Assembly (NCBI GenBank): GCA_030684395.1
Contig: JAUXTT010000011.1
Location: 1 to 64,000, forward strand
Reading direction: 5' to 3'
DNA: 64,000 nt
Source: Bacteroidota bacterium
Lineage (GTDB): Bacteria > Bacteroidota > Bacteroidia > B-17B0 > Aurantibacillaceae
The notes below the pieces were generated by a model. The model searched no databases, was not told the DNA's origin, and saw nothing but the letters and a program-made list of their open reading frames with translations. Below, piece after piece: positions 50,644 through 60,934 of this stretch. Both the position numbers and the translations under genes were made by a program. The stretch's first letter is position 1; each line of letters opens with the position of its first letter.

Positions 50644-52287
50644 ATGAAAACTTACCTGTATTTGGGAGGATTATTTTTGTTTTTCTCTTTTTTCACTTTT
50701 GGTCAATCAACCAAAACATACTTTGATCGAACAGGTAAGTCGGCAAGTGAAACTTCAGCTTATTATTATCGGGAAAAACTTGATGGAGAAAACCAATATA
50801 AATGCACTTACATTAGTAATAACGCAGTATACTTCGAAGGTAATATTATAAGCGCAAGTAATTCTGATGAAAACCTAAACAAATATCAGGGACCTTGTAG
50901 TTGGTATTACAGAAACGGCAAGAAAAAATTCTCCAAAAATTTTAACACCGAAGGGAAGGAAGATGGAACCTCCACCTATTTTTATGAAAGCGGTAAGATC
51001 TGGAAAGAGATTGAATTAAAAAACGGAAAAATCGTAGATAATCGCTATAAAGAATACAGCGAGGATGGTCAGATGGCACGAATTTTTGAAGAGAATTTTA
51101 ATGATAATTCAAACGACTGGGATCTGTATAAAAGTGATAAGAATTTCGTTTCTATGAAGAACGGAAAACTGGAACTTTTATCCTTTGTAAAAGAGGGAAC
51201 TTCGAGGTACATAAACATTTCCACTGAATCAGATGAGTTCGCGGTTGAAGCAGTAATAGATATCAAAGTTTTAAAGGATGGGGATAAAACCGGGCTACTA
51301 TATGGTTTCAAAGACTGGCAAAACTATAATTTCTTCTACATCACTAATTCTTCATTCTATATAGGATTTGTGTATGAAGGTATTATCTCCATGAAATCGG
51401 AAGGCATGTATTCGAATGCCATTACGAAGGAAACCCCTAACACAATTAAGGTAATAAGTAATGGTGAAAAAAATGTATACTCTATTAATGGTGAAATACA
51501 ATACAGTACAGATAGAAGCCGCAATTTCGGAAATAATCTTGGAATAATGGTCAGTGGAAAGTCCTCCGTTTCTGTAGACAAAATTATTTTTAAAGAGTTC
51601 AATTTTAATAAGGGATCAAACTCAAACAACTCAACTACATCAAATTCTGACCTTGATGTAAAGGCAAGTGGTTCAGGAATTGTTTTTGGAGCCAACGGAT
51701 ATATCCTGACAAATTATCATGTAGTTGAAAATGCAAACAAAGTTCTTGTAGAATTTACCATTAATGGCGAAAAGAAAAGTTATTCGGCCACTGTTGCTCA
51801 AAAGGATATAGACAATGATTTGGCAATATTAAAAATAAATGATGAATCATTTAAACCTTATTCAGGCATTAATTATTCTTTCAAGGAAAATGGCCAAATT
51901 GACATTGGAGCCTCTGTATTTACAATTGGTTACCCCTTTGCTCTTTCAGGTATGGGTAAAGATGCAAAATTCACAGATGGGAAAGTAAGTTCTAAAACAG
52001 GATACAATGGTGCTATAAATGCCTTCCAAACATCAATCCCTGTTCAACCCGGAAATAGTGGTGGGGCCGTTTTTAACGAGAAAGGTGAATTGGTTGGAGT
52101 TATTAATTCTAAAGTTGTTGGTGCTGATAATGTTTCCTACGCAATTAAATTAAACTACATTAAAAACCTGGTAGAAGTACTTCCTGAAACCGTTAATTCC
52201 CCAAGCAGTCAAAGCGTCATTAATTTGTCGTTGGAAGAAAAGATAAAAGCATTAATGAATTACGTGGTACTAATCAAAATAAAGTAA
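50644..52287 (+). CDS. Secreted trypsin-like serine protease with MORN-like and beta-sandwich domains
   Basis: A 547-residue protein. The signal peptide (1-20, ending FFTFG) precedes MORN/toxin-antitoxin-like repeats (about 60-145; GPCSWYYRNGKKKFSKNF, EDGTSTYFYESGKIWKEIEL). A concanavalin-like beta-sandwich follows (about 150-320; NFNDNSNDWDLYK, GLLYGFKDWQNYNFFYI), then a Ser/Asn linker. The chymotrypsin-fold domain is at about 340-515. The triad is His359 (YILTNYHVVE), Asp392 (DNDLAILKI) and Ser472 (PGNSGGAVF), all in good context. No PDZ domain follows. It heads a three-gene unit with 6- and 20-bp gaps. Confidence 0.9.
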   Translation: MKTYLYLGGLFLFFSFFTFGQSTKTYFDRTGKSASETSAYYYREKLDGENQYKCTYISNNAVYFEGNIISASNSDENLNKYQGPCSWYYRNGKKKFSKNFNTEGKEDGTSTYFYESGKIWKEIELKNGKIVDNRYKEYSEDGQMARIFEENFNDNSNDWDLYKSDKNFVSMKNGKLELLSFVKEGTSRYINISTESDEFAVEAVIDIKVLKDGDKTGLLYGFKDWQNYNFFYITNSSFYIGFVYEGIISMKSEGMYSNAITKETPNTIKVISNGEKNVYSINGEIQYSTDRSRNFGNNLGIMVSGKSSVSVDKIIFKEFNFNKGSNSNNSTTSNSDLDVKASGSGIVFGANGYILTNYHVVENANKVLVEFTINGEKKSYSATVAQKDIDNDLAILKINDESFKPYSGINYSFKENGQIDIGASVFTIGYPFALSGMGKDAKFTDGKVSSKTGYNGAINAFQTSIPVQPGNSGGAVFNEKGELVGVINSKVVGADNVSYAIKLNYIKNLVEVLPETVNSPSSQSVINLSLEEKIKALMNYVVLIKIK

Positions 52288-52293
52288 AAGCAT

Positions 52294-53133
52294 ATGAAAT
52301 TTCGTTTACAAATAATACTGCTTTTCTTTCTATTTACTATAGTTGGTTTAGCTCAGGAAAAGGAAATTAAACCCGGCAAGCCCAATGAGCTGGATAAGCA
52401 ATATACTCCCGACAAAAACTCTTCCAGCGTTTCAAATGGATCTTCATCAGGCGGAACCTGGGCAGGGAAAAGCAATTTTGTGAAATTTAATTTTGCATTA
52501 TTAGCTCGCAGCACTTTTGCGGTTTTCTATGAACGAAAAATCACAGATGGCATTTCATTACAAGGCGGTTTGGGTTATTGTTATAATAAAGACAAAGCAC
52601 AGATCCTTTTTAGCGATGGCGAATCCATCTATTTATCAGATAATAAATCCTCTATTCAACTTAGTGAGATCATGTATAAGGGTACATTTAAGCATGGAGC
52701 TAATCCCTTTCTTTCTGCATCTGTTCGCTTTTCTTATAACGGACTTTATTCAGGATGGGGTGGTTACATGAATGAGGACAGAAATAGTTATATTGAACTT
52801 GGGATGCGTTATTATTCTCATCATTATAATTTAACCAGCCTGAATAATAATGATTACGAAAAGGTAAGCGGTGGATCTAACCTTGGCATTCGTAATACCT
52901 GTTATATGATAACCTGGGGATATCAGATCGAAACTGACTCCAAACTTGTTACCAGCCATGAATTTTATACCGGATTTGGCATAAGAAGATCAAATTATAA
53001 TGAATTCATTTCATCGCAAACACAAGACCCAATTACCAGTGCAACAATAATTACCCATACAAAATCAAGTGTAAGAGAAACTGCAGTTTCTCCAATTGTC
53101 ACTATTGGTTATGTATTAGGCTTTGGATTTTAA
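52294..53133 (+). CDS. Putative outer-membrane protein of the protease operon
   Basis: A 279-residue protein with a signal peptide (about 1-21, ending VGLAQ) and a polar Ser/Gly-rich segment (SSSVSNGSSSGGTW). The body has alternating beta strands (FAVFYERKITDGISLQGGLGY, ASVRFSYNGLYSGWGGYM, AVSPIVTIGYVLGFGF). It ends in Phe, as outer-membrane barrels do. The gap from the protease gene is 6 bp, so the two are co-transcribed. Function unknown; a platform for the protease or its product is one possibility. Confidence 0.8.
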   Translation: MKFRLQIILLFFLFTIVGLAQEKEIKPGKPNELDKQYTPDKNSSSVSNGSSSGGTWAGKSNFVKFNFALLARSTFAVFYERKITDGISLQGGLGYCYNKDKAQILFSDGESIYLSDNKSSIQLSEIMYKGTFKHGANPFLSASVRFSYNGLYSGWGGYMNEDRNSYIELGMRYYSHHYNLTSLNNNDYEKVSGGSNLGIRNTCYMITWGYQIETDSKLVTSHEFYTGFGIRRSNYNEFISSQTQDPITSATIITHTKSSVRETAVSPIVTIGYVLGFGF

Positions 53134-53153
53134 ACACTAACAAAAAAACATAT

Positions 53154-54920
53154 ATGAAAAAAACAATTCTTTTATTTTTTGCAATCCTCCTAACAGGAGC
53201 AATTTCCCAGGCACAGGATCTGGATGTTAAATGGGCTGATAAGATGATGTATGATAATAAAATGGAAGGATTCTTCAACCATTTTATTGATGCAAATTCT
53301 AAATATATCTATGCTCAATATACTAACCTTGCTTTACGTCCTAAAAAGGCGGAGCGTAAAATGAAAATTGTAGCTTATGATAAAACCACCATGAAAAAAG
53401 TAGCCGATGTACCTCTAAGAGGTTTTAGAGAAAACCAGGCTTCTGTAAAAAAATATGAAGGCCTATCATACTACAAGACACTTGTTTTCGAAAATGTGAT
53501 ATACATATTCTGGAGAAAAGAAGGTAAAAAGAAGGAAGAATTGTATGTAGAAAGTTTCGATTCGAAATTAAAATCCATAGCAAAAATCAAAAAGATCTAC
53601 GAATTACCAAATCCTGATTCTAAAAAAGCTCGCGCACGTCAATCACTGGTAGTTATGGGAAATACTAAGGCTGGCGAAAAAGTATTGATTGGTGGGGAAA
53701 TGCCAACTGAAAAGGATCAAAATGTGAAATTCGAGTATAAGTTAATGAATAGCGACTTAAGCTTTGCTAACGCAAGTCAAATCGAACTACCTATTAAACT
53801 AACTAATAAAAGTTATGGTTTAACCTCCTCGTATGAATATGGCGATGATGGGAAATTGTATATAAAAAGTACCGTCTCAATGGATAAAGAAGAAAGAAAA
53901 AAAGCTGCGAAAGGCGAAATGACTTCTTACACTATATTCTCTGTTGTAGATTTAACATCAGGTAGCATTACCCCATTTACTTTTAAGTTTGACAATAAAA
54001 ACATATTTAACCTTGGTTTTACTGTAACAGATAAAGGAGTAAAAGTATATGGCTTTTTCTGCGATTTAGTTAAAGATCCTCGTGGAACCGATATGCACGG
54101 TATATTTTACTCAATCCTGGATAGCAAAAATATGACTATGACTGCAACCAATTTTTCTTTTTTTGACAAGGCAACATTGGATAAACTTTTTGCAAGAGAC
54201 AAAGAAGATCAGAAGTCAGGTGGAAAAGGAAAGGGAAAAAAATCTAAAGGAAAAAAATCGGATGAAGAATCCTTAGACTCCAGGTATGAAATTGAATCAG
54301 CACAAATATCAGAAAATGATAACCTTGTATTGTTTTGCTCCAAAATGTACAACTGGTCTGTTACTACATGTAATGACAAAGGAGGCTGTGTAACCAGTTA
54401 TTATTGCCAACGAGATAACATTACCGCATTTAAAGTGAATAAAGAAGGAAATATTGTATGGGCATCCAACCTCGACAGAAAAATCATTTACAACAGATGG
54501 TATGTTTTTGACGTTAGGGTTGTTGCAAAAAACAACAAATACTATGTTATCTATGGTTCCAGCTATGATACTGACGCCACAAAAAAGAACAGAAAGAGCA
54601 GAAAATCTAAAGCAGAGGTTCGTGATAAATTTGAATATGGAGTATTTGAAGATTCAAACGGAAATTACAAAAAAGGTGAGGTTGTAATTAATAGCCCGGG
54701 CACCGAAAAGAAAGAAAGAAAATTTGTTGTTCCTGAGAAAATATCAGTTATCGACAACAACTTTTATGTAAACTCAGAAAGAATTAAATTTAAACCATTA
54801 GGAACAACGCTATACTGTGTTGGATCCTCAATTTGCCCACTCTTATTGTGGCCTATGATGTCAGATGGAAACATTAGAAGAGGTGTCGGAAATTTAGGGA
54901 AGATCACCCCACTAAAATAA
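53154..54920 (+). CDS. Secreted hypothetical protein of the protease operon
   Basis: A 588-residue protein with a signal peptide (1-20, ending ISQAQ). The body looks like a large beta-propeller or beta-rich fold (YKTLVFENVIYIFWRKEGKK, KVLIGGEMPTEKDQN, NNKYYVIYGSSYDTD). A very lysine-rich insertion at about 350-380 (SGGKGKGKKSKGKKSDEES) and an isolated cysteine cluster (CNDKGGCVTSYYCQ) stand out. Family not recognised. It follows the barrel-like gene by 20 bp, and its stop is 1 bp from the stop of the convergent gene. The terminator for this operon lies inside that convergent gene. Confidence 0.78.
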   Translation: MKKTILLFFAILLTGAISQAQDLDVKWADKMMYDNKMEGFFNHFIDANSKYIYAQYTNLALRPKKAERKMKIVAYDKTTMKKVADVPLRGFRENQASVKKYEGLSYYKTLVFENVIYIFWRKEGKKKEELYVESFDSKLKSIAKIKKIYELPNPDSKKARARQSLVVMGNTKAGEKVLIGGEMPTEKDQNVKFEYKLMNSDLSFANASQIELPIKLTNKSYGLTSSYEYGDDGKLYIKSTVSMDKEERKKAAKGEMTSYTIFSVVDLTSGSITPFTFKFDNKNIFNLGFTVTDKGVKVYGFFCDLVKDPRGTDMHGIFYSILDSKNMTMTATNFSFFDKATLDKLFARDKEDQKSGGKGKGKKSKGKKSDEESLDSRYEIESAQISENDNLVLFCSKMYNWSVTTCNDKGGCVTSYYCQRDNITAFKVNKEGNIVWASNLDRKIIYNRWYVFDVRVVAKNNKYYVIYGSSYDTDATKKNRKSRKSKAEVRDKFEYGVFEDSNGNYKKGEVVINSPGTEKKERKFVVPEKISVIDNNFYVNSERIKFKPLGTTLYCVGSSICPLLLWPMMSDGNIRRGVGNLGKITPLK

Positions 54921-54921
54921 T

Positions 54922-55737
54922 TCACTTCAATAGTAAAGGATATTTGACTAATATGTTTTTATAACTGAGCTCACATTTTTTTGTGAGCTCAGTTTTTTTA
55001 CGACCTTCCTTTTCGTTAACCAGTTTATTTGTCAACCTTATATTTCCGGTATAAAATTTATACCCGAATGTAACACCCAATCCAACAAAATTAAAATAAC
55101 ACTTGTTTTGAAGCAGGTAATAACTCAACAGAACACTGGAACCTGTTAACGCCAAACTGGTAAATCCCTTAAGTACATTTCCGTTAAGCATTGATCCCAA
55201 TCCCGGTAATATCGCAGAGGCATTAACAAGCAACTTTTTTCCTTTGAGTTCATAGTTGTTGATCTCAACCAAACACGATAAACAAGAAAAACCGGAATCA
55301 TATTGACCCAATTTTTTCAAGGTAGATGAGGCCAACGCTGTATCAATCTTTGAAACAATAAGTGTTTTAAGCAACAGAAATTCAATACTCGAATCTGCTT
55401 TAAAATCTTCATATTTAGAAACATAATGATAAGCCGAAGTACTTTCTTTATTGATGTATAAAATTACAGCGGCATTCCAATAAAACTCAGGCAAAACAGA
55501 ATCATTCAGGAGCAAATAATCAATTCTGTTTATCTCGTTCAAAGTTTGTGAACCTGTTATTCCAGATCTCAATAAACAGTTCAACTTATCATAAATGTAT
55601 TCAGTTTTAACTGTGTCGTTTTTGCACAAATAGATCTTATGCTCTAAACGTAAAAGTTCAGAACTTAAAGAATCCTGCGAAAACAGTTTAAGGGTACAAA
55701 CTGTTACCAGTATCCATATATAAATAATCCGAACCAT
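54922..55737 (-). CDS. PGLG-motif membrane protein, second of a pair
   Basis: A 271-residue protein with a signal peptide (about 1-20, ending KLFSQ), a helical periplasmic region, then ASAILPGLGSMLNGNVLKGF and hydrophobic segments (ALTGSSVLLSYYLLQ, FVGLGVTFGYKFYTG). The PGLG segment is shared with the gene at 55688. Its start overlaps that gene by 50 bp, implying translational coupling. The C-terminal codons (ELTKKCEL) coincide with a strong terminator hairpin, so the natural end of the protein may have been extended through it. Function unknown; the cassette with the YidD-like gene suggests an envelope role. Confidence 0.75.
   Translation of the reverse strand: MVRIIYIWILVTVCTLKLFSQDSLSSELLRLEHKIYLCKNDTVKTEYIYDKLNCLLRSGITGSQTLNEINRIDYLLLNDSVLPEFYWNAAVILYINKESTSAYHYVSKYEDFKADSSIEFLLLKTLIVSKIDTALASSTLKKLGQYDSGFSCLSCLVEINNYELKGKKLLVNASAILPGLGSMLNGNVLKGFTSLALTGSSVLLSYYLLQNKCYFNFVGLGVTFGYKFYTGNIRLTNKLVNEKEGRKKTELTKKCELSYKNILVKYPLLLK
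54963..54999. terminator. Terminator hairpin inside the 3' end of a convergent gene
   Basis: AACTGAGCTCACA (54963-54975) pairs perfectly with TGTGAGCTCAGTT (54982-54994), and T residues follow. It would end the plus-strand protease operon. It is read as coding sequence of the minus-strand gene ending at 54922. Confidence 0.85.
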
Positions 55738-56470
55738 GATTTAGTAATTGGTGATACTTTTCTTTCTTGTTTTTCTTTGTTTCAATAAAGCTACCGTAAA
55801 TATTTGCCGAATACATTAAACCCAACATCCCGATATTAAAAATGCTCACCGGATTCTTTATTCCCAAACGTTTAATACTCTCATATGTTTGCACGCCATA
55901 TAACAAGTGTGCTGCCAGGGTAATGCCAAACGCCCGTTTCCTTCCAATATAAGCTTTCCCTAATCCCGGAACAACAGCCGACATGGTTGCAGCTAATAGT
56001 GGTTTTTTCTTCAATGCCTTTTTATAATTACGCATATCGCTGTCTAATTGCAACGAAACAAATTCAAATGCTCCTGAATCTGCCTGTTTTAGTATAGTTA
56101 CAAACTGTTTGGATCTCCTTGTGCTATCAACATTTTGATCCACAAACTCTATCCATTTCCGGGTATATTGATCGCTCTGTTTAAAGTAATAAACCGTTGC
56201 TGCATTTACAAGTAAACAATCTCTTGACGAGAGATCAACAGATGAGTACAAGTGCTCAAAAAACAAACTATCATCATGGTATTGCAAATAGTACTTACAG
56301 GTTAAATAATGAAGACTATCAGAGGATGTAGTTGAAGAAGTGAGATAGGAAACATGTTCGTTCTTTAACCCGTTTGAACTAAGGTGCTTTACAAAATTAA
56401 GATCTACCTGCGAGCTTATCTTTAAACAAAAAAAGAGACAAACAACTAAATAAACTTTAATTTTCTTCAT
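55688..56470 (-). CDS. PGLG-motif membrane protein, first of a pair
   Basis: A 260-residue protein with a signal peptide (about 1-21, ending KISSQ), a helical region of about 130 residues and then AATMSAVVPGLGKAYIGRKRAFG. Hydrophobic segments follow (ITLAAHLLYGVQTY, IFNIGMLGLMYSANIYG). The PGLG...Y.G.R pattern resembles small DUF5683-like or TM2-like membrane modules, but I cannot assign it. The related gene at 54922 has the same order of parts. The start overlaps the YidD-like gene by 14 bp. Confidence 0.75.
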   Translation of the reverse strand: MKKIKVYLVVCLFFCLKISSQVDLNFVKHLSSNGLKNEHVSYLTSSTTSSDSLHYLTCKYYLQYHDDSLFFEHLYSSVDLSSRDCLLVNAATVYYFKQSDQYTRKWIEFVDQNVDSTRRSKQFVTILKQADSGAFEFVSLQLDSDMRNYKKALKKKPLLAATMSAVVPGLGKAYIGRKRAFGITLAAHLLYGVQTYESIKRLGIKNPVSIFNIGMLGLMYSANIYGSFIETKKNKKEKYHQLLNHGSDYLYMDTGNSLYP

Positions 56471-56888
56471 CCAGCACGTTATTTATTTTGCCATCAGAAT
56501 TGATAAGGTATTCGCTCCTCTCGTAGATAGATCCTGGGAAACAACTATACAACTGATTAAGTCCTTTCAGAGTTCCTTTAACAATACCCTTTTTCTCTAT
56601 TGATTTTTTAGTGAACTCAGAACAACTCATTTGGTAACCACAATCAGCTTGAATTTGCTCGGAAATTACATTTTGGTAAAAATACATGAGTCCTGCTCCC
56701 ACATACAAAAGCGGATTTACCTTAGCAACAAAACTCTTATCCTTTAATGAAAGAAACTTTCTTGGGTGCGTGTGAGTATCTTTACTTTCAGTAAATGTTG
56801 AAGAAAGCAATGCTGCATTAACTCCATTTTGGCAATGAGCTGAAAAGCATAACAGAAAAAATAGAAAAAAAACAGTTAGGTATTTCAT
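56457..56888 (-). CDS. YidD-like protein with an N-terminal export signal
   Basis: A 143-residue protein. Residues about 58-118 match the YidD family (membrane protein insertion efficiency factor): YFYQNVISEQIQADCGYQMSCSEF and IVKGTLKGLNQLYSCFPGS, with Cys83, Cys89 and Cys116 in the conserved positions. The usual C-terminal GYDPVP is absent. Ordinary YidD is a short cytoplasmic-face protein that assists YidC. This one begins with a strong signal peptide (FFLFFLLCFSAHC) and a 35-residue linker, so its domain should be exported. It leads a cassette with two signal-bearing PGLG proteins through overlapping starts. Confidence 0.78.
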   Translation of the reverse strand: MKYLTVFFLFFLLCFSAHCQNGVNAALLSSTFTESKDTHTHPRKFLSLKDKSFVAKVNPLLYVGAGLMYFYQNVISEQIQADCGYQMSCSEFTKKSIEKKGIVKGTLKGLNQLYSCFPGSIYERSEYLINSDGKINNVLDEEN

Positions 56889-56906: not shown

Positions 56907-57422
56907 TTATTTAGCGGCAAATGTGAACTTGATCTTTCTGACACTCTCTACTGTTTCTATTATGAGTTTTTCATTGGTGAGACACAGGATATTCCAACTT
57001 TGATAACTGCCATTCAATTTGAATGTATTTGTTTGCGTTTCGGAGTTTCTAAAAAAGAACATGAGTTTGTTCTTATCATCTGCAAATTCCCATGCTCCCG
57101 ACTGCCCACCTATAGTATATGGAGTAGTATGTATCACATGAAGATCAAAAAGAACACCCATATCCTCCGGCCATTTTCCGGCGTCGAACTTTACCTCAAC
57201 CTGTCCGAAATTATAATCAGTTGCCGGAGAAAAATAACCTTCATGATACATTTTTTGAGTACTATCTATACCATCTATGCTTAGTTGCTCAACCTTCCAT
57301 GTATGTTTGGTTAATCTTGCTTTAGGAGACTTAAACAAAAACCTCCTATCATCTTCAGGATATTTTTTACAAGCAAAAACAAAAACCAGTGCTAAAAAAA
57401 GAATTCCGCTCAATTTTTTCAT
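56907..57422 (-). CDS. Putative lipoprotein of unknown function
   Basis: A 171-residue lipoprotein from the ATG at 57422 (KKLSGILFLALVFVFAC, lipobox VFAC). An ATG three codons upstream is possible but weaker. The mature part is a small beta-rich domain (LTKHTWKVEQLSIDGID, YNFGQVEVKFDAGKW, KIKFTFAAK at the end), like lipocalin-type or DUF-type Bacteroidota lipoproteins. It starts 11 bp after the icmF stop and ends 18 bp before the YidD-like gene, so it may be part of the icmF-to-PGLG transcript. Confidence 0.75.
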   Translation of the reverse strand: MKKLSGILFLALVFVFACKKYPEDDRRFLFKSPKARLTKHTWKVEQLSIDGIDSTQKMYHEGYFSPATDYNFGQVEVKFDAGKWPEDMGVLFDLHVIHTTPYTIGGQSGAWEFADDKNKLMFFFRNSETQTNTFKLNGSYQSWNILCLTNEKLIIETVESVRKIKFTFAAK

Positions 57423-57433
57423 AAATACCATTC

Positions 57434-60400
57434 CTACATGTTTCTTCTATACTGCCCACCAACCTCAAACAAAGCTCTGGTGATCTGACCCAAAGAACAA
57501 TACTTCACCGTATCCATCAACGAATTAAAAATATTTCCATTTTTAATAGCTACTTGTTGAATATCCTTTAACATTTGCTCACCCGTTGAACCACTTGCCT
57601 TCCAAAGTGTTTGTACTGTATTTATCTGGAATTCTTTTTCATCAGTTGTGCTTCTAATAACCTCAGCAGGGATTACCGTTGGTGATCCTTTGCTCGATAA
57701 AAAAGTATTCACACCAATGATAGGGTATTCGCCTGTATGTTTTAATGTTTCGTAATACAAACTTTCTTCCTGGATCTTACCGCGTTGATACATAGTTTCC
57801 ATTGCGCCCAGCACACCACCACGCTCACTGATACGATCAAATTCAGTTAACACAGCTTCTTCCACTAAATCTGTCAACTCTTCTATAATGAATGAGCCTT
57901 GCAATGGGTTTTCATTTTTCGCTAATCCTAATTCGCGGTTAATGATCAACTGAATTGCCATAGCTCTACGAACGCTTTCCTCTGTAGGAGTTGTGATCGC
58001 TTCATCGTAAGCGTTTGTATGTAAACTGTTGCAGTTATCATAAATTGCGTATAATGCCTGAAGTGTTGTACGAATATCATTGAAATCAATTTCCTGTGCA
58101 TGCAAACTACGTCCGCTTGTTTGAATATGATACTTCAACATTTGAGAACGCTCGTTAGCATTGTACTTTAACTTCATTGCTTTTGCCCAAATACGACGGG
58201 CAACACGACCGATCACGCTGTATTCAGGATCGATACCGTTACTAAAAAAGAAAGATAAATTCGGAGCGAAACTATCAATATGCATTCCTCTGCTTAAATA
58301 ATATTCAACAAATGTAAATCCGTTAGCCAATGTAAATGCAAGCTGAGAGATAGGATTAGCACCCGCTTCAGCAATATGGTATCCACTTATGGAAACAGAA
58401 TAAAAATTACGTACGTTCTGATCAATGAAGTATTGCTGCACATCACCCATCACTTTCAAACTGAACTCTGTACTGAAAATACAAGTGTTCTGAGCCTGGT
58501 CTTCTTTCAAAATATCAGCCTGCACAGTACCACGCACTTGAGATAAGGTTTGTATTTTTATTTTTTCATACACCTCCTTTGGTAATACCTGATCTCCGGT
58601 AACACCCAACAACATCAAACCTAAACCATCATTCCCTTCCGGCAGATCACCATTGTATTTAGGGCGGGCAACACCTTTTGACTTATAGAGATCATTGATC
58701 CTTTTCTCAACTTCTTTTTCTAACCCATTTGCTTTGATGTAAAGCTCACATTGCTGATCAATAGCTGCATTCATAAAGAAAGCTGCAATAATAGCTGCAG
58801 GACCGTTGATGGTCATACTCACTGAAGTTGTAGGGGAAGCAAGATTAAAACCACTGTACAATTTTTTTGCATCGTCCAAACAGCAAACACTTACACCGCT
58901 ATTCCCAACCTTACCATAAATATCAGGGCGGTGATCAGGATCTTGTCCGTACAAAGTAACACTATCAAATGCCGTACTCAAACGAGCAGCAGGCAATCCT
59001 TTACTTACATAATGAAAACGTTTGTTTGTTCTTTCCGGTCCGCCTTCCCCGGCAAACATACGGGTAGGATCTTCTCCTTCGCGTTTAAATGGATAAATAC
59101 CCGCAGTATATGGAAATTCGCCCGGGAAATTTTCCTGCAGATTCCATGTCAATACATCACCCCAGGCTTTGAAACGAGGCACTGCAATTTTTGGTATTTG
59201 TGAATGAGATAAACTTTCGTAATGCGTTTTAATTTTAATTTCTTTGTCACGAACTTTAAAAATATAATATTCGTTTTGATATTGTTGTTTGCGATCGTGC
59301 CAGGTTTCCAATAGTTTTTTATTATGCCCTTCCAAATCCAGTTCAACCTGCTTATATTGTTCTTCCAGCGTTTTGATTAAACTATCCTTCTCCGGAAATT
59401 TACTTTCTTTAAAACAGGCAATGGTATTTTTAATGCTGTATAATTTCTCCGCTACTTCAGCCTGAGAAACCACGCGCTTATCATAACTGCGGTTATTTTC
59501 TGAGATCTCACTCAAATAACGTGTACGGGCGGGCGGGATGATAAAAATTTTCTCACTCATTTCGTCAGAAGTAGCAAATCCAGATTTTAAATTAGCGCCT
59601 GTTTTCTCAACCAATTTATCCATAACGGCTCTGTATAAACTGTTCATACCCGGATCGTTGAATTGAGAAGCAATAGAGCCATAAACAGGTAACTTCTCAT
59701 CCGATGTTTCCCACAAATTATGATTGCGTTTATATTGTTTCTTAACATCACGAATTGCATCCAATGCGCCACGTTTATCAAATTTATTCAATGCAATAAT
59801 ATCCGCAAATTCGATCATATCAATTTTCTCCAACTGAGTTGCGGCTCCATATTCAGGAGTCATTACATACAAACTCATGTCGCTATGTTCCGTTATCTCT
59901 GTATCACTTTGTCCAATACCCGCTGTTTCAAGAATTACTAAGTCGAAATTAGAAGCTTTTAAAATATCAATTGCTTGTTGAACGTGTTTTGATAAAGCTA
60001 AATTACTTTGACGTGTGGCCATTGAACGCATAAAAACCCTGTCGTTGCGAATAGAGTTCATACGAATTCTATCTCCTAACAAAGCTCCACCGGTTTTACG
60101 TTTACTAGGATCAACCGAAATAATTCCAATTTGTTTTTCCGGGAAATCAATTAAAAACCTACGTACCAATTCATCTACCAAACTTGATTTACCCGCACCG
60201 CCGGTGCCTGTAATTCCCAATACAGGTACTTTAGATGCAAGAGCCATCTCGTGAATTTTTTTCATCAAAACCTCACTTTCAGGATTTCCGTTCTCAGCTG
60301 CTGAAATTAATTTTGCTATTGATTTATGATCCTTTTCTTTGATATGATTTACTTCACCGTTCAAATTTACACCTGTAGGATAATCAGCCTGTTTCAACAG

Positions 60401-60811
60401 ATCATTGATCATTCCCTGTAAACCCATTGAACGACCATCATCCGGGCTATAAATCCGTGTAATACCATGCTTGTGTAATTCATCAATTTCAGTTGGAAGA
60501 ATAACGCCACCACCACCTCCAAAGATCTTGATATGCCCACATCCACGCTCTTTCAGCAAATCGTACATATATTTAAAATACTCTACATGTCCTCCCTGAT
60601 AACTGGTGATAGCAATTGCATTTGCATCTTCCTGAATAGCGCAATTAACAACATCTATAACGCTTCTATCGTGGCCTAAATGAATAACTTCAGCGCCACT
60701 GCTTTGCATAATACGACGCATGATATTGATAGCTGCATCGTGACCGTCGAACAAAGCTGCTGCGGTTACAATACGAATTTTATTTTTAGATTGATATGCT
60801 GTTGTTTCCAT
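57434..60811 (-). CDS. icmF: Fused isobutyryl-CoA mutase-type acyl-CoA mutase (IcmF)
   Basis: A 1125-residue B12 enzyme with three fused parts. Residues about 10-140 are the cobalamin-binding domain with the lower-ligand motif DGHDAA (His24) and FGGGGG. Residues about 160-460 are a MeaB-type G-protein chaperone (P-loop GTGGAGKSS, 202-210; NKFDKRG). The rest is the acyl-CoA mutase barrel ([48 protein letters not shown]). This order is that of IcmF, not of two-subunit methylmalonyl-CoA mutase. Known members interconvert isobutyryl- and butyryl-CoA or similar acyl-CoAs; the exact substrate is not decided here. The ATG at 60811 fits the promoter 24 bp upstream; the longer open frame to 60889 is not used. 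Confidence 0.95.
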
Positions 60812-60834
60812 AATGTAAATCAAATGAGAGAAGC

Positions 60835-60865
60835 CAAAAATAAGCATTCGTAAAGGGAAATACAA
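60835..60865 (-). promoter_or_regulatory. Promoter of icmF
   Basis: TTG (60865-60863), a 20-nt spacer and TATTTTTG (60842-60835) match the Bacteroidota promoter pattern on the minus strand. They lie 24 bp upstream of the preferred ATG and inside the longer open frame, which argues for the shorter start. Confidence 0.65.
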
Positions 60866-60934
60866 AAGAATCCGACGAATTTGGGTCATTTAAAAGCAGG
60901 AGACTGTATTGAAGGAAAATGACCAAATTTCTCT

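Follow-up and report, generated by a model that had tools for sequence, protein, structure and literature searches.

The window, the whole stretch of 64,000 nucleotides analysed here, carries a variant of the YidD family within an undescribed operon. Its first gene, E, encodes a YidD domain behind a signal-like N-terminus, and it is followed by A and B, which encode a pair of homologous proteins. The three overlapping genes lie on the minus strand (56888-54922) and are confirmed as open reading frames, and the overlaps of 14 bp for E/A and 50 bp for A/B given in the first-pass annotation are exact. Its central claim, that an exported YidD is coupled to PGLG proteins, finds support in the relatives of the operon. 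The co-inheritance of a second, exported YidD with the paired partners A and B points to an undescribed envelope machine in many Bacteroidota. The features of the locus are as follows.

56457..56888, minus strand: E, exported YidD paralogue, 143 aa (PF01809 42.9 bits, TIGR00278 44.5 bits)
56832..56888, minus strand: signal peptide of E, residues 1-19 (MKYLTVFFLFFLLCFSAHC, then QNG), from the hydrophobic N-terminus and positive n-region
56535..56693, minus strand: YidD domain of E, residues 66-118, from the Pfam match
56640-56642, 56622-56624 and 56541-56543, minus strand: cysteines C83, C89 and C116 of E, from alignment columns
55688..56470, minus strand: A, 260 aa, with signal peptide, TPR-like helical domain and C-terminal PGxGKxYxG hairpin domain, from AlphaFold, the family profile and conservation next to E
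55943..55969, minus strand: PGLGKAYIG motif of A, conserved across 21 diverse A sequences
54922..55737, minus strand: B, paralogue of A, 271 aa, with co-conserved C155 and C255, from hhalign of A against B and cysteine columns
55180..55206, minus strand: PGLGSMLNG motif of B, conserved across 20 diverse B sequences

E is a YidD paralogue behind a signal peptide

E exceeds the cut-off of 27 bits for PF01809, which it matches over profile positions 6-58 of 67, and that of 40 bits for TIGR00278. Because the latter is passed, automatic annotation would name E the insertion factor YidD and hide the difference between the two. The genome also retains an ordinary YidD of 69 aa (G000:C16:344622), so that E is a paralogue. 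In a tree built from a short alignment, all 62 E sequences fall into a single clade (local support 0.86), apart from 35 canonical and five signal-less copies. A narrowed E alignment, used to scan named genomes, returned 31 exported relatives, mostly from uncultured Bacteroidota. All three cysteines of the family are kept in the E of the window, as the first pass had noted, and their columns are invariant in the E alignment A5; the third is missing in nine of 62 E sequences, in some remote families, and the first two are never lost. The C-terminal end of the family, (H/N)P...G.DPVP, is absent from E and replaced, the profile match ending at 58-59, which bears out the earlier description of a lost C-terminal motif behind a strong signal peptide and linker. 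The median net charge of the E core is 0, against +7 for canonical YidD (p 2e-15), a loss that a domain no longer exposed to the cytoplasm would be expected to show.

The N-terminus of E, MKYLTVFFLFFLLCFSAHCQNG, is signal-like. By a hydropathy heuristic, used here in place of SignalP, a hydrophobic signal-like segment is present in 99 of 102 E relatives; a positive n-region is likewise found in 99, with a Q near the cleavage site. The same heuristic is passed by 218 of 406 neighbouring genes, the neighbourhoods being rich in exported proteins. The possibility of a lipoprotein signal was weighed and discarded for each of the three protein families. The first cysteine lies at residue 64-102 in the 102 E proteins versus residue 24 in the canonical YidD of the genome, and the signal peptide is therefore an addition before a complete YidD N-terminus. 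The AlphaFold model of E is moderate (pLDDT 80.9, pTM 0.51) and places the family's own N-terminal helix at residues 59-79. E has no second membrane span: in none of the 102 proteins does a second segment, before or after the cysteines, reach a 19-residue hydropathy of 1.6 or more (median 0.84). Sequence searches found no solved relative of YidD, PDB structure searches with E and A gave no match with an E-value below 0.001, and repeat structure searches with E returned nothing useful.

Gene order, co-inheritance and fusion

The order E-A-B is kept across dozens of families and recurs in nearly all of about 100 relatives examined, far more than chance would give. E is followed by A and then B in 56 distinct relatives at the order level and beyond, and the genes nearly always overlap (E/A in 48 and A/B in 52 of 53 distinct loci). 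The exceptions are one locus with A on another contig (L088), one with an inserted gene of 477 aa (L066) and one with a broken E (L176). At the class level, E lies directly upstream in 60 and B downstream in 64 of the 69 loci anchored on A, and contig ends or the limits of the scoring windows cost these counts a few more. This is almost what the first-pass annotation had predicted, namely that the fusion of a signal to YidD would be widespread and always next to PGLG genes.

The presence of the second YidD follows that of A. At the order level, a long-frame second YidD is found in 28 of 29 A-positive genomes and in none of 58 A-negative ones. For the phylum, a search with the E profile cross-matched canonical YidD and was uninformative, and the A hairpin profile was used instead. 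Among 247 Bacteroidota genomes, all 30 that are A-positive have a second YidD, compared with five of 217 that are A-negative (Fisher p 9e-34, uncorrected for phylogeny). None of the second YidDs in these five genomes has a signal peptide; the signal peptide and the A gene therefore go together. Homologues lacking the signal in the same context, which would have spoken against the earlier proposal, were not found, and signal-less second YidDs were seen only in genomes without PGLG genes. Four class-level genomes have A without an adjacent E (G416, G517, G625 and G428), and each encodes a long-frame second YidD elsewhere; in G416 and G517 this detached E lies in an operon of a LolA-like gene, E and B. 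In two genomes from distant lineages and different families (G215 and G415), E and A are fused into one open reading frame of about 400 aa, which runs from the signal peptide through the YidD domain and a TPR-like region to the PGxG hairpin, with no membrane segment between YidD and TPR. These fusions place the YidD and TPR-like domains on the same membrane side, after the signal peptide and before any hairpin. That the exported YidD works with A and B is, in our view, very probable.

Some class members (L231-L234) carry a signal-less second YidD of the KCIFxKSCS type that overlaps a gene of 76-87 aa with the motif MEYKVxPFVASI; it is another, separate YidD offshoot. Pairs of operon copies, divergent or convergent, also occur within one genome (L236/L255, L247/L258 and L256), and in these pairs the LolA-like gene accompanies either one copy or both.

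A and B are paired TPR-hairpin proteins

A and B align as homologues from end to end (hhalign probability 99.7, E 2.6e-27) and share one domain plan of a signal peptide, TPR-like helices and a PGxG hairpin domain. The first pass had assigned both a common PGLG..Y.G segment. This is exact in A (PGLGKAYIG), but B has PGLGSMLNG and departs from it, its full-length homology to A notwithstanding. S164, P168, G171, K172 and Y174 are invariant and G169 is kept in at least 90% of the 21 diverse A sequences, and P178, G179 and G181 are invariant in the 20 of B.

The AlphaFold model of A is confident (mean pLDDT 91.9). It shows TPR-like helices and a helix-PGLG-helix element (157-174), followed by two further helices, one at 178-202 and a very long one at 207-254. 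The family profile A6 matches consensus TPR chains at 2e-19; the A of the window alone has no Pfam TPR match, and repeat structure searches with A gave generic TPR or helical matches only (best Z 6.1). For DUF5683 (PF18935), A scores 13.3 bits against a gathering score of 26.7 and B has no match, while weak matches are seen for ten of 20 B and five of 21 A members. Homology of the A hairpin to small TM2 proteins is unsupported (hhalign probability 4.9), and PHROGs gave no meaningful match. Both hairpins are weakly hydrophobic, so that membrane anchoring is not certain and export past the inner membrane would be allowed. In B, C155 and C255 are occupied together (28 sequences with both, two with neither; both in 29 of 56 in a wider set), a pair that is consistent with a disulphide in an oxidising compartment.

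Genes next to the operon

In 38 of the 60 class-level loci where E precedes A, the gene immediately before E is one of about 240 aa that resembles the LolA superfamily. Its likeness is below formal cut-offs: 16 of 32 members match PF17131 LolA_like (best E 2.6e-5), eight match DUF4292, and one member scores 15.8 bits for PF17131 against a cut-off of 30. The best PDB match by sequence is a LolA-superfamily protein (E 0.32). The gene is absent beside the triad of the window and was not found in the window genome, and it therefore cannot be essential to the module. Small exported TM2 or TM2-like hairpin proteins of two families (24 and 19 loci) flank the operon in many loci, their genes standing either before the LolA-like gene or, in convergent orientation, beyond B; the triad of the window has none beside it, nor have many E-A-B loci. 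The E-A-B core has outer neighbours that vary between lineages. The LolA-like and TM2 partners in relatives extend the first-pass annotation, as do the ordinary YidD elsewhere in the genome, the TPR-like domains of the paralogues A and B and the loss of the third cysteine in some lineages.

Convergent to the triad, on the plus strand at 50644-54920, the window contains a cluster of exported proteins (a 547-aa trypsin-like/MORN protein, one of 279 aa and a 588-aa repeat protein). These families recur beside E-A-B in relatives of the window: the 588-aa family in 29 loci, the 279-aa type in 20 and the 547-aa family in 11. E is preceded at a distance of 18 bp by a lipoprotein-like gene of 174 aa (56907-57431) and, 2 bp beyond that, by a large mutase-type gene (57434-60889). 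Both could be co-transcribed with the triad; this arrangement upstream of E was seen in none of the relatives examined. In two remote families, E is preceded by a lipoprotein-like gene with the motif SCSTIMNGS.. or SCATIMKGG.. (L133 3654-4124, L227 1807-2295). One lineage has a fourth overlapping gene after B (L064, L065, L067, L068 and L070), which in L070 resembles a signal-bearing WD40-repeat protein.

Proposed mechanism and alternatives

YidD was present in nearly every genome searched, and its molecular role is vague. Canonical YidD aids YidC in membrane protein insertion at the inner membrane of E. coli, according to Yu et al. 2011 as cited in PMC8082313 and PMC3573977. A literature search that covered mainly papers open without subscription found no description of an exported YidD or of an E-A-B operon, nor evidence for their function. 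An exported subfamily that is kept only with fixed partners offers a genetic handle on the YidD fold itself, apart from YidC and the ribosome.

The computation shows homology, gene order, co-inheritance, fusion, signal-like N-termini and the lack of a second membrane span in E; from there we infer a physical E-A-B complex, its membrane side and its handling of clients. E would be exported by Sec and its signal peptide then removed, leaving the amphipathic helix and the YidD domain at the periplasmic face of a membrane, where they would bind A and B. These two would each contribute a periplasmic TPR-like domain, with the weakly hydrophobic PGxG hairpin domain as a putative membrane anchor; either the inner or the outer membrane would be allowed. 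E may present to hydrophobic segments a surface of the kind used by canonical YidD, but on the periplasmic side. The complex would take in hydrophobic or lipidated envelope proteins as they emerge there and hand them on, in many relatives to the putative LolA-fold periplasmic carrier encoded just upstream, with the small exported TM2 proteins as possible clients or subunits. A periplasmic-face module that takes such proteins and passes them on is a tentative reading to which we give somewhat less than an even chance. The fuller version is more doubtful: an undescribed machine of envelope-protein biogenesis in Bacteroidota, in which a periplasmic YidD paralogue, a dedicated TPR-hairpin receptor pair and, in many lineages, a LolA-like carrier would act from outside the cytoplasm to insert hydrophobic or lipidated proteins or to transfer them. 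The "envelope assembly machine" of the first-pass annotation is plausible but unproven. At the class level, 87 of 395 genomes and 56 of 197 genera have strong matches to the A hairpin, so the module could fill a gap in the envelope biogenesis of a phylum dependent on lipoproteins of the outer membrane.

Alternatively, E-A-B could be an envelope scaffold or secretion platform at the periplasmic face of either the inner or the outer membrane, where it would assemble or export a surface structure. In that case the YidD fold would be a small membrane- or protein-binding domain only, with no role in insertion or passing on. In favour of this, TPR domains commonly act as general scaffolds, E has lost the basic character that marks canonical YidD, and in the clade of the window the triad adjoins the 588-aa repeat protein and the exported proteins of 279 and 547 aa. 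However, the extra partner found most widely is LolA-like, and that fold is associated with lipoprotein trafficking; the outer neighbours differ by lineage, so that no single surface structure is linked to the module. We consider a scaffold rather unlikely.

The adjacent small exported TM2 proteins could also be what the module serves, as secreted peptides or antagonistic factors for which E-A-B and the LolA-like protein would be a dedicated export or immunity partner. This proposal would fit the TM2 or TM2-like genes with signals that lie close to the operon in both sets of loci, as well as the patchy distribution of the operon and its tandem or divergent duplicates. It is nevertheless improbable, as the triad of the window and many other E-A-B loci have no TM2 gene and no variable or toxin-like features were seen.

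Least probable is that the N-terminus of E is an uncleaved first helix and residues 59-79 a second span, keeping the YidD domain in the cytoplasm with YidC, as the 19-residue hydropathy of this region in the E of the window (1.15, near the canonical YidD median of 1.23) would permit but as the hydropathy across the 102 relatives, the two E-A fusions, the lost positive charge and the covarying cysteine pair in B all disfavour.

Comparison with known systems

E resembles YidD (PF01809 / TIGR00278), the membrane protein insertion efficiency factor, in domain homology above curated cut-offs, in the three cysteines and in the amphipathic N-terminal helix before the first of them. Unlike canonical YidD, it has a signal peptide and a linker of about 40 residues in front and lacks the C-terminal HPWGGxGYDPVP end. 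It further differs in its core net charge of 0 rather than +7, in its operon and in being a paralogue beside a canonical copy. The short YidD of the cytoplasmic face has no signal peptide, whereas nearly all E proteins have a signal-like N-terminus (99/102). A and B share a PGxG..Y.G-type hairpin with the DUF5683 (PF18935) and TM2 (PF05154) proteins; in contrast to these, the A and B of the window stay below the cut-offs, have a TPR-like domain as well and accompany E. In most class-level relatives, the gene immediately before E resembles the LolA superfamily carriers (PF17131, PF03548, DUF4292), from which it differs in its sub-threshold scores and in its absence from the locus of the window.
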